64,000 nucleotides of DNA, from the NCBI RefSeq assembly GCF_002487355.1, contig NZ_NTMG01000067.1, positions 1-64,000 of the forward strand, written 5' to 3'. Source of the stretch: Candidatus Methanoperedens sp. BLZ2. GTDB taxonomy: Archaea > Halobacteriota > Methanosarcinia > Methanosarcinales > Methanoperedenaceae. A program made the position numbers and the translations under genes. Below, one piece after another: positions 23,571 to 53,541 of the stretch (within the stretch, counting starts at the first letter, position 1; each line of letters starts with the position of its first letter). The notes beneath the pieces were generated by a model. It searched no databases and had not been told where the DNA came from. It saw nothing but the letters and a program-made list of their open reading frames with translations.

Positions 23571-24431
23571 ATGAGGAAAGATAAGTTAGGTGGGACTCAA
23601 TCCAACAAGGAATGCATGGACATAGAAATTCCAAAGCCTCCAGCTGAAGAGCTGTCGGGTAATCGTGCACCACCACGCAAGAAAGCAAAAAAGGCATTAC
23701 AAGCATCATCAGAAAAAAAAATAGCTTTAATAATAAATGACGACAATGATATTGATTTTGGAGATGATCAGAGTGTGCCCACATTTACGTCGGCATTTAA
23801 GTATATGGGGTATGATGTTAAATTGGAGAAAGCAAGTGAAACTGTATATACAACATGGCATAAATATGATATTGTAGTATGGAGCTGCGGGGATGATTAT
23901 TCTGCCGTAAATACCATTAAATACAGACAGATGCTTGTAGAATACGTGGAGATGGGAAGGCATCTTTTACTTGAAAGTGGGAATGTTGCGGCATGGGCAA
24001 AAGAATTTGGAGGAGAGATATTCCCGAACCGCATGTTCCGTAAAAAGGTGTTGCATGTAACAGGAGACTGGGTCTATCATGATGTTGGGGATTTGAAATT
24101 AAAAACAAATCATCCTATTGCCACCACACCAAATGCACTTCCCAAAACTATTGGTTTTACCCCTACAAATCCGGGAGATAACTCAGGAGATGCCAACGCT
24201 GTCAGGATTTTATCTGATGCTACAGGCGTATATAGTTGGTCTTCTGTTTCCTACGAAAATATGCTTTTAAATGATAGTATAGCAGAAAAATCATACGGGC
24301 TTGTAGCATATGAATCCAGGGAAGGAAATGGCGGTCGAATAGTATATTTTGCCTTTGATATAGATGACATTGAAGATGCTGACATACAGCAGAAATTAAT
24401 AGAAAACTCGGTAAATTGGCTTAAATCATAG
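23571..24431 (+). CDS. GATase1-like domain protein, unknown function
   Basis: A 286-residue protein. The N-terminal 50 residues are basic and proline-rich (CMDIEIPKPPAEELSG, PPRKKAKKALQA) with no signal peptide. Then comes a class I glutamine-amidotransferase-like Rossmann fold (IALIINDDNDIDFGDDQSVP, YDIVVWSCGDDYSAV, MGRHLLLESGNVAAWAKE, GGRIVYFAFDIDDI) of the type found fused to secreted peptidases. No nucleophile cysteine is in the expected place. GAGGAAAT before the ATG is a good ribosome-binding site. It is followed by the astacin gene after 12 bases. Confidence 0.6.
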   Translation: MRKDKLGGTQSNKECMDIEIPKPPAEELSGNRAPPRKKAKKALQASSEKKIALIINDDNDIDFGDDQSVPTFTSAFKYMGYDVKLEKASETVYTTWHKYDIVVWSCGDDYSAVNTIKYRQMLVEYVEMGRHLLLESGNVAAWAKEFGGEIFPNRMFRKKVLHVTGDWVYHDVGDLKLKTNHPIATTPNALPKTIGFTPTNPGDNSGDANAVRILSDATGVYSWSSVSYENMLLNDSIAEKSYGLVAYESREGNGGRIVYFAFDIDDIEDADIQQKLIENSVNWLKS

Positions 24432-24443
24432 GAGTGAGAAGAA

Positions 24444-25547
24444 ATGTCAAAAATAAGTAAAGAAGAAAAATCAAAAATAAGCGGAGAAGGAAAGCATCAA
24501 CGGTTATGTTCGATACCTATGGTGCCTGAACGCATCCTGCCAACGGACATCCACCCCACCCGCGCCAGACTAATCCAGATACTGGACAAAAAGTGGGTAA
24601 ATGGAACAGTACTGCCCTATTGTTTCCTCAATGAACCAGCTAAGTTTAAAGGGGCTGAGGAGCAGAAGAAAGTTGTGCGTGACGGGTTCAACGTGTGGAA
24701 GAACGTGGGCATAGGTGTGAAGTTCGAAGAGGTCTCAAATCCTGATGATGCCCGGGTCCTCATAGGCTTCTTGCGGGACGATGGTACCTGGTCCCTCGTA
24801 GGTCGTGACATCCGGAATGAAGATTTTAGGAGAGAGTTAGAAGGGAGGACGATGAACTTCGGGTGGGATTTGATTAGGGAGGATCGCAGGGGGGTCGATA
24901 CTGCGACTCATGAGATAGGTCACACTTTAGGATTTCCACATGAGCACCAGAACCCCAACGCTGGCATAGAATGGAATGAAGATGCAGTTTATGAGTTTAT
25001 GCGCAGGACCCAGATCCCTCCTTGGGATAAGGATACAACTGATCATAATATCATAAACAAGATCCCACCAGATGAGGTGCAAGGATCGAGTTGGGATCCT
25101 AATTCGATCATGCATTATCCCTTCGCAGCCGGCTTAATCAATAAGCCTGCACAATATAAGAACGGCCTTAAACCTGCGGGCGGGCTATCCGAGAGAGATA
25201 TTACCTGGGTTAAGACCTTTTATCCGCCTGACAAACCGGATATTGTGGATCTCACCATCGACACACCCGTTCCACTCTCCCTAAACCCAGGGGAGCAAAA
25301 GGACTTCAGCTTCAGGCCCGGGGAGACACGGATCTATCACATGGCAACAGAGGGGGACTCGGATACTGTGATGGTCCTGTTTGAGGAGAAGAATGGGGAA
25401 AGGACCCAGCTAGCAGCTAACGACGATAGCGCTACGGACATCAATGCCCATATTGAGCAGGAGTTGACCGAGGGAAACAAATATATACTGAGCATCCGGC
25501 TTTATTATGAGTGGGGACGTGGCGATACTAAGGTGAAGGTGTGGTAG
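24444..25547 (+). CDS. Astacin-like (M12A) zinc metalloprotease with PPC-like domain
   Basis: A 367-residue protein. Catalytic zinc motif HEIGHTLGFPHEH (H156, E157, H160, H166) and Met-turn SIMHYP (M223) are those of astacins. A C-terminal segment from about 275 (PVPLSLNPGEQKDFSFRPGE...) resembles a PPC beta-sandwich. No signal peptide is seen, which is unusual for astacins. GC content is visibly higher than that of flanking genes. The TAG at 25545-25547 is directly followed by an open frame in the same phase that runs into the VWA gene, so the two may be one gene broken, or read through, at this codon. Confidence 0.85.
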   Translation: MSKISKEEKSKISGEGKHQRLCSIPMVPERILPTDIHPTRARLIQILDKKWVNGTVLPYCFLNEPAKFKGAEEQKKVVRDGFNVWKNVGIGVKFEEVSNPDDARVLIGFLRDDGTWSLVGRDIRNEDFRRELEGRTMNFGWDLIREDRRGVDTATHEIGHTLGFPHEHQNPNAGIEWNEDAVYEFMRRTQIPPWDKDTTDHNIINKIPPDEVQGSSWDPNSIMHYPFAAGLINKPAQYKNGLKPAGGLSERDITWVKTFYPPDKPDIVDLTIDTPVPLSLNPGEQKDFSFRPGETRIYHMATEGDSDTVMVLFEEKNGERTQLAANDDSATDINAHIEQELTEGNKYILSIRLYYEWGRGDTKVKVW

Positions 25548-27482
25548 ACGATCGGCACATCAGATATTGAAATCGAGAAGGAAGGCCCAAAGTCTGGAAA
25601 AGATAATAAAAGCAGCCTCTGGATCACCGATTCATCAGCGAAGGAAAGAAGGACCTCCCTGGAGTTGCCCGCAGGGTCTTGGACAAGGCTGGAGTTGCAG
25701 CCTGCTACCGATGGAAATCTCCTTCTCCTATGCTGTTATCCAACAGGATCGATAGATACCATATTCAGCATCCCTGTGGAAAAAGGTTACATCTACAGAA
25801 CATGGTATCAATCTGAGGCAGAAGGAAGTTATGAAATCTGGTATATTCTTGATGGATACGAAAGCAACACAGTCACATTTCATGTGATTCAGGGAATAGA
25901 AAAGACCCCATCAAGCCCGATCGGGTCTATTTCGATGCCTGCGGCCCGGTCGTTTGCACCATCCCGAAGTATCGGCTTCTCAGTTGGTGGGGCCAAGGAC
26001 ATCGGCAATTTCAGGGAGAACATAGAGGCTGGCTACCTGCCCCTGCCTACTGATGTGACATTCGAGGGTATAGCTTATGGATATTATTTCCAGACAGCCC
26101 AGGCCGGCGAGTGCAAGAAAATCTTCTGCCCATCCTACAGCTATGCCATATCAAAAGATCCTTTATCCGGGGAACTTCAGCACTACCTTTCTGTTGGCCT
26201 TAACTCTGGCATAACAGATTTTCACAGAAGCAAGTTGAATCTGGTTCTTGTGCTTGACCGCTCAGGTTCTATGAGGACAAACTTTGATCAATATTACTAC
26301 GACCGCTTTGGAAACAAAAGGGAGGCAATGGGAAAGGTCGTAGATGTGACCAAGATGGAGATCGCCAGCCAAACAATAGTGAACCTTATAGAGCATCTGA
26401 AAGATGATGACCGCTTTGGGCTCCTCGTCTTTTCTGATAATGCATTGCTGGTGGAACCCATGATACCTGTGAAAGATAAAAACACAGAAAAGCTCGGTAA
26501 GAGAATCATGGAAATCGGGGCATACGGTGGCACCAATATGGAGGCAGGGATCAGGAAAGGGACTGAGCTCTTCTCCAGGGTTCGGGGGAAGGTTCCTGCA
26601 GGAAATAAGAAATCGGACCAGGAGCAGTACGCGGACAGGATAATCTTTCTAACTGATGCCATGCCCAATACAGGGGAGACAAAAGAAGAAGAGATGCTGA
26701 AAAGCTTCAGGGAGAATGCTGCCAACAGCATATATACAACCTTCATAGGTGTCGGGGTCGATTTCAACACAGAACTGGTAGAAAAAATGACCAGGATCCA
26801 GGGGGCTAATTATTACTCCATCCACTCTGCTGAGGAGTTCAGAAAGCGCATGGATGAGGAATTCGATTACATGGTCACGCCTCTGGTGTTCGATTTGCAG
26901 CTCTATCTGCATGCCTCAGGTTACAAAATCGAGAAGGTTTATGGATCTCCTGAAGCAGATGAAGCCACGGGGGAAATAATGAAGATCAGTACTCTATTCC
27001 CATCGAAGGTCGAGGAGAAAGAAATTAAAGGGGGAGTCGTGCTAATCAAGCTGAAAAAGATATCATCTGAGAGAAGTATGAGGCTAAAGGTTACATATAG
27101 GGACAAGGAGAATGCGCAGCATGTAGATGAAACCGAGGTGGAGACCACAGAAGAGGAATCCGAGTTCTATCAGGGACCTGGCGTTCGAAAGGCCATCCTC
27201 CTCTCAAGGTATGGCGATCTTCTCAAGAATTGGCTCATTGATGAGATAAAGGGGGCGAAGGGAAGAGAGAATGTTCAGCCAACTGTGACCCTGGAAACTG
27301 GCATAGTCGCGCCTGTGAAATTGGGGAAATGGGAACGCCAATCTATTCCCCTGCATGTCACAGATCAATACAAGAATATTTTTGAATTGTTCAGGGCCTA
27401 CTTTGAGAAAGAGATGGAGGCCTTAGGGGATGAAGCCCTGAAACAGGAGCTGGCAGTTCTGGGGAAGCTCGCTGGAGATTAA
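25548..27482 (+). CDS. VWA domain protein, in frame with the astacin gene across a TAG
   Basis: The frame is open from just after the astacin TAG to 27482. The first usual start is TTG at 25665, with a poor ribosome-binding site, and the 39 codons before it contain no ATG, GTG or TTG although they read as ordinary protein. From the TTG the product has 605 residues: a beta-rich segment, a VWA domain with a full MIDAS (DRSGSM near 198-203, GGTNMEAG, FLTDAMPNTGE), then a C-terminal helical domain. No signal peptide. It may have been made as the second half of a 1012-residue protein. Confidence 0.8.
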   Translation, partial: TIGTSDIEIEKEGPKSGKDNKSSLWITDSSAKERRTSLELPAGSWTRLELQPATDGNLLLLCCYPTGSIDTIFSIPVEKGYIYRTWYQSEAEGSYEIWYILDGYESNTVTFHVIQGIEKTPSSPIGSISMPAARSFAPSRSIGFSVGGAKDIGNFRENIEAGYLPLPTDVTFEGIAYGYYFQTAQAGECKKIFCPSYSYAISKDPLSGELQHYLSVGLNSGITDFHRSKLNLVLVLDRSGSMRTNFDQYYYDRFGNKREAMGKVVDVTKMEIASQTIVNLIEHLKDDDRFGLLVFSDNALLVEPMIPVKDKNTEKLGKRIMEIGAYGGTNMEAGIRKGTELFSRVRGKVPAGNKKSDQEQYADRIIFLTDAMPNTGETKEEEMLKSFRENAANSIYTTFIGVGVDFNTELVEKMTRIQGANYYSIHSAEEFRKRMDEEFDYMVTPLVFDLQLYLHASGYKIEKVYGSPEADEATGEIMKISTLFPSKVEEKEIKGGVVLIKLKKISSERSMRLKVTYRDKENAQHVDETEVETTEEESEFYQGPGVRKAILLSRYGDLLKNWLIDEIKGAKGRENVQPTVTLETGIVAPVKLGKWERQSIPLHVTDQYKNIFELFRAYFEKEMEALGDEALKQELAVLGKLAGD

Positions 27483-53268: not shown

Positions 53269-53541
53269 ATGAAGAGGGTATCTGGAAAAATCATAAGAGC
53301 TGCTACGAGCCTTCTTCTTCCGGTGAAAAAGACCCGCGCCGGAGAGTGTAAAAGGTGTGGAGAATGCTGTAAGTTCGTATTTAAATGTCCATTCCTGAAG
53401 TTTGAAAATCATGGATCTAGTAAATCCATGTGTACTATCCACAGTTTAAGACCCCCGCAATGCAGGAAATATCCAAGGGCTAAATGGGAAAAAGCGCATG
53501 AACCATGTGGATACCATTTTATTGAAGAAAAAAGTATTTAG
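53269..53541 (+). CDS. YkgJ-type cysteine cluster protein
   Basis: A 90-residue protein with the YkgJ zinc/iron-chelating pattern CKRCGECCKFVFKCPFL, then CTIHSLRPPQCRKYP and CGYHF. Role unknown; members often modify or bind metals. It lies 36 bases before pspA on the same strand. Confidence 0.82.
   Translation: MKRVSGKIIRAATSLLLPVKKTRAGECKRCGECCKFVFKCPFLKFENHGSSKSMCTIHSLRPPQCRKYPRAKWEKAHEPCGYHFIEEKSI

Follow-up and report, generated by a model that had tools for sequence, protein, structure and literature searches.

The window analysed here, 64,000 nucleotides in length, belongs, as contig C30, to a genome of 3.74 Mb that is 99.99% complete, and the genes under study lie on its plus strand. 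The first of them (23571 to 24431, 286 amino acids), of a family that is not known, probably belongs to the same operon as the gene that follows, with which it constitutes one ORF in the relative LFW-24. This second gene runs from ATG 24444 to TAG 25545-25547 and encodes an astacin-like metzincin of 367 residues, resembling the AbsR1 family (NF050131) and provided with a C-terminal PPC-like domain. From 25548, behind the TAG, this frame runs on without interruption until TAA 27480-27482 (644 codons). Its first 15 codons (25548 to 25592) do not align with LFW-24, where their place is taken by a 174-nt interval carrying the start of the next gene, and the rest (25593 to 27482) encodes a conserved VWA protein, with an N-terminal beta domain from about SSLWITD and a VWA domain at about 26240-26840. 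The 39 codons behind the TAG are devoid of ATG, GTG and TTG, the earliest standard start being TTG 25665 to 25667, inside the conserved N-terminal domain and with a poor Shine-Dalgarno spacing. A Shine-Dalgarno-like sequence, AAGGTGAAGGTG, is found at the 3' end of the astacin gene (25530 to 25541), at a spacing that suits a start just behind the TAG. An earlier note on this DNA had placed the astacin stop and the end of the open frame at these positions, which proved exact on re-reading; its statement that standard starts are missing before TTG 25665 was confirmed, and the poor ribosome-binding site that it described there agrees with the spacing found.

The astacin protein scores above the cut-off with Pfam PF01400/PF00413, and contains the zinc motif HExxHxxGxxH (HEIGHTLGFPH) and the Met-turn SIMHY, which are kept in five homologues. 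Myroilysin (PDB 5gwd), an M12A astacin, shares the catalytic domain (residues 42-261), but the match stops short of the PPC-like domain. The model NF050131 is matched over positions 3-361 of its 361 (1.3e-100, 337 bits), with its last position, 361, at residue 367. Thus, the protein is like the AbsR1/SCO6992 family (MMP-like sub-family 3) in its full-length alignment, zinc motif and C-terminus, but its 337 bits fall below the AbsR1 equivalog cut-off of 650. Streptomyces SCO6992, the namesake of this nearest NCBIfam model, has been reported to have beta-glucuronidase activity and no protease activity (PMC9705864), and the zinc-protease motif is intact in the window (24444-25547). The findings on the activity of SCO6992 cannot be carried over to the window astacin. 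Since SCO6992, the sole studied relative, reportedly lacks protease activity, proteolysis by the window protein is not certain. Plasmid relatives of the astacin protein were distant ones only, and the searches for viral relatives of either the astacin or the VWA protein found none.

The end of the astacin protein is consistent among relatives. The TAG follows VKVW at one residue position in three genomes (the window, G021 and LFW-24), and the astacin relatives in G099 and G464 stop at the equivalent place or two residues later, with TAA. In the structure model the catalytic domain was poorly modelled and the C-terminal domain alone was used; this part forms a complete PPC-type beta sandwich, with its last strand at residues 362-366 and a fold match to 5sv5 (TMt 0.76). 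Since the TAG is present in G021 and LFW-24, NF050131 is matched to its last position and the PPC domain closes before the stop, TAG 25545 is the ancestral end of the astacin protein.

The counterparts of the VWA protein in LFW-24, G464 and Methanotrichaceae are homologous to it from about SSLWITD onwards, a point that precedes TTG 25665, and therefore the ancestral start was located upstream of that codon. The relatives in Methanotrichaceae and Campylobacterales carry signal-like N-terminal sequences of their own, and the bacterial relatives lack the entire N-terminal domain. Among the 186 genomes of the order searched, close relatives were found only in the window genome, G021 and G020, the last carrying the same DNA as LFW-24, an isolate of an uncultured archaeon. 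The marine sortase target-type VWA proteins (TIGR03788) share the VWA domain and its flanking region with the window protein, which differs from them in falling far below the cut-off (46 vs 552 bits) and in having no visible signal peptide. The structure model of the VWA protein is of low confidence (mean pLDDT 58, about 45-57 in the N-terminal domain) and was used for strand order alone. The families and the conserved neighbourhood suggest that the VWA protein would bind a partner or a substrate of the enzyme.

When the window is compared with G021, the 5' 489 codons of the VWA gene differ by 38 amino-acid changes, whereas 55.9 ± 3.8 would be expected in the absence of selection (dN/dS 0.28). 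This shows purifying selection on the 5' part of the gene since the split from G021; therefore, the protein has been translated and used during part, at least, of that period. In codons 1-140 taken alone, too few for a firm result, no significant constraint was detected (10 changes vs 12.8 ± 2.0). Neither a stop nor a frameshift was found within the VWA frame of the window.

The arrangement of the two genes in relatives bears directly on the earlier proposal of a recently broken fusion gene, that is, a single astacin-VWA gene split by a nonsense mutation, with which the shared frame and its single stop are in keeping. In LFW-24, four further stops in the frame follow the TAG before the VWA gene begins at its own ATG (8359 in L032), with a hydrophobic N-terminus. 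The astacin and VWA genes are neighbours also in G464, a more distant archaeon of the same class; there 404 nt separate them, their frames differ, and the VWA gene again has its own ATG. Searches of the order (186 genomes) and the phylum (393 genomes) found no astacin-VWA fusion, and the two longest VWA frames (1194 and 1372 amino acids), belonging to another family, had no astacin in the DNA examined around the match. The one-piece homologue that the earlier note had suggested looking for was not found, and the start behind the stop in LFW-24 and G464 is what it had named as counting against a fusion. Taking into account the own VWA starts in LFW-24 and G464, and the own signal-like N-termini in Methanotrichaceae and Campylobacterales, astacin and VWA represent a conserved neighbourhood and not a broken fusion; with the astacin family also ending at the TAG, a split single gene is hardly credible.

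It has to be noted that the open frame behind the TAG is weak evidence by itself, not exceeding what chance provides, because the conserved VWA sequence leaves only about 15 codons behind the TAG that are free of constraint and have to be explained. A stretch of 15 codons without a stop has a probability of 0.51 in this window and, with a frame match of 1/3, a same-frame open junction is expected by chance in about 1 of 6 cases. At random positions, 39 codons without a start codon have a probability of 0.22. The unusual feature is that no standard start precedes the conserved N-terminal domain of a gene that is itself conserved.

The earlier note had also considered that the TAG could be read as pyrrolysine, or otherwise read through, giving a 1012-residue astacin-PPC-VWA protein. 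The likeness to pyrrolysine recoding at UAG consists of an in-frame TAG in an archaeon, but profile searches of the genome gave best matches of 31 bits for PylS (cut-off 178) and 24.5 bits for PylD (cut-off 150), and none of 42 tRNAs detected with RF00005 has a CTA anticodon, a count to be read with the reservation that an odd tRNAPyl could escape the model and that the expected Tyr, Trp and Cys tRNAs are also unlisted. TAG is an ordinary stop in this window, where it ends 8 of 46 long open frames. Among seven other genes listed earlier as ending in TAG, six do so, and for the one at 53269 the plus-strand frame from that position ends in TAG at 53541. Without such machinery, a near-cognate tRNA might still read UAG at some rate, producing a minor 1012-residue protein beside the 367-residue astacin. 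This would fit a frame that is open in both the window and G021, a VWA gene that is under purifying selection although no standard start precedes its conserved domain, and an identity across the junction (0.97) equal to that of the coding flanks. However, neither Pyl genes nor an amber tRNA were found, the RNA fold behind the TAG is not better than those of shuffled sequences (z +1.5), and the TAG is also present in LFW-24, where the four further stops would make reading through futile. A junction of the readthrough type (one frame or a sense codon) is kept only in G021, the genes being separate in LFW-24 and G464. Moreover, the cases that a review of archaeal recoding lists as demonstrated are limited to Sec, Pyl and -1 frameshifting (PMC8211752). 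Pyrrolysine insertion is left unsupported by these results, and readthrough by a near-cognate tRNA appears quite improbable.

The explanation that best accommodates these data, to which we assign a probability of about 0.8, is that a small operon contains astacin and VWA as distinct genes of the same orientation, that the TAG is a true stop, and that the VWA protein is, or was until recently, synthesized as an independent polypeptide. According to this two-gene explanation, astacin translation would end at the ancestral stop TAG 25545, and the common ancestor of the window genome and G021 would have lost, or never had, a 129-nt interval that holds the standard start in LFW-24, a change that may have occurred through recombination or deletion. 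In LFW-24 the TAG and the conserved TCTGGAAAAG lie 174 nt apart, vs 45 nt in the window and G021, and it is the absence of this start-bearing interval that would leave the VWA frame directly behind the TAG in these two genomes. The LFW-24 interval was not found elsewhere in the genome of the window. Identity between the window and LFW-24 is 75% in 23616-25590 vs 92-95% in both flanks, and over the last quarter of the VWA gene the window, but not G021, resembles LFW-24. The locus is, to judge from these comparisons, a mosaic, whose origin is most simply attributed to recombination. Some points weigh against the two-gene explanation: an open frame behind the TAG in two genomes is also expected from readthrough, and starts at ACG or ATC have not been demonstrated in this genus.

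The gene pair is ordinary in kind, and the remaining point is the initiation of the second gene. Termination-reinitiation is established in archaea (Haloferax) and requires very short distances, of a few nucleotides (PMC6728339, PMC10666635). The window pair shares with those systems adjacent co-directed genes and a Shine-Dalgarno-like site within the upstream gene, but differs in that no ATG, GTG or TTG overlaps the stop or lies a few nucleotides from it, the near-cognate codons ACG 25548 and ATC 25551 being the only ones so placed. Tentatively ranked first, although its probability is below one half, is a start at one of the near-cognate codons that follow the TAG (ACG 25548, ATC 25551 or ATT 25566, the first two being the best placed), which would take place by reinitiation or another non-standard route and be aided by AAGGTGAAGGTG. 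The Shine-Dalgarno duplex of AAGGTGAAGGTG before ACG 25548 reaches -8.5 kcal/mol, a value attained by 2.4% of positions, and the site is the same in G021 and absent from LFW-24, which has a VWA start of its own. However, the site overlaps coding sequence and was noticed after several codons had been inspected.

Translation from TTG 25665, the sole standard start available, would yield a VWA protein whose N-terminal domain is short of its first two strands. The spacing of its Shine-Dalgarno is poor, and such a start would cut into a domain that LFW-24, G464 and Methanotrichaceae have all conserved. This domain is perhaps dispensable, and a TTG start is nearly as good an option since the bacterial relatives manage without it; the lack of significant constraint in codons 1-140 is compatible with this start alone or with none, and counts to that extent against the two-gene explanation. 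On its own, a TTG start is somewhat unlikely and is ranked second. The third place is given to a recent loss of the start in this strain, the VWA gene now being silent, which is rather improbable. Codon 10 of the VWA frame behind the TAG is GTG in G021 and GAG in the window, in keeping with such a loss, but the G021 GTG has no Shine-Dalgarno (-1.1) and may be due to chance, and the VWA frame of the window is undamaged. From the three options of the earlier note, the rare start is thus the best one left, the codon used and the expression of the gene lying beyond what sequence can tell.

A bolder proposal, that a protease-PPC-VWA fusion is regularly produced through simple UAG readthrough in an archaeon lacking pyrrolysine, or that such an archaeon uses ACG or ATC to start a gene by reinitiation directly behind the stop of its neighbour, is on balance unlikely. 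Should this strain produce the VWA protein, the locus would offer a concrete case in which reinitiation, or the choice of a non-standard start, could be tested in an archaeon not yet cultured; if it does not, this would be an ordinary gene pair with a damaged start. The locus shows that a gene following a stop in frame does not necessarily imply recoding, and that it is the relatives that decide.

Other features of the operon can be mentioned. The resemblance of the codons behind the TAG (SDIEIEK) to the beginning of the upstream gene (MDIEIPK) was considered as a possible copy, and was dropped for want of DNA similarity. In the blocks 23616-25590 and 27000-27480, identity to G021 and LFW-24 ranges from about 70 to 99%, pointing to recombination across the operon. 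The upstream gene and astacin (window 23571-24444) share one frame with a TAG and a TGA between them, and correspond to one 650-codon ORF in LFW-24 (L009, 2895-4847), so that stops separating the genes of this operon are acquired and lost. Finally, at 23571-23616 the window lacks about 67 nt that are present in G021 and LFW-24, which fuses a small upstream ORF to the upstream gene; in LFW-24 this small ORF ends in TAATG, at the next start.
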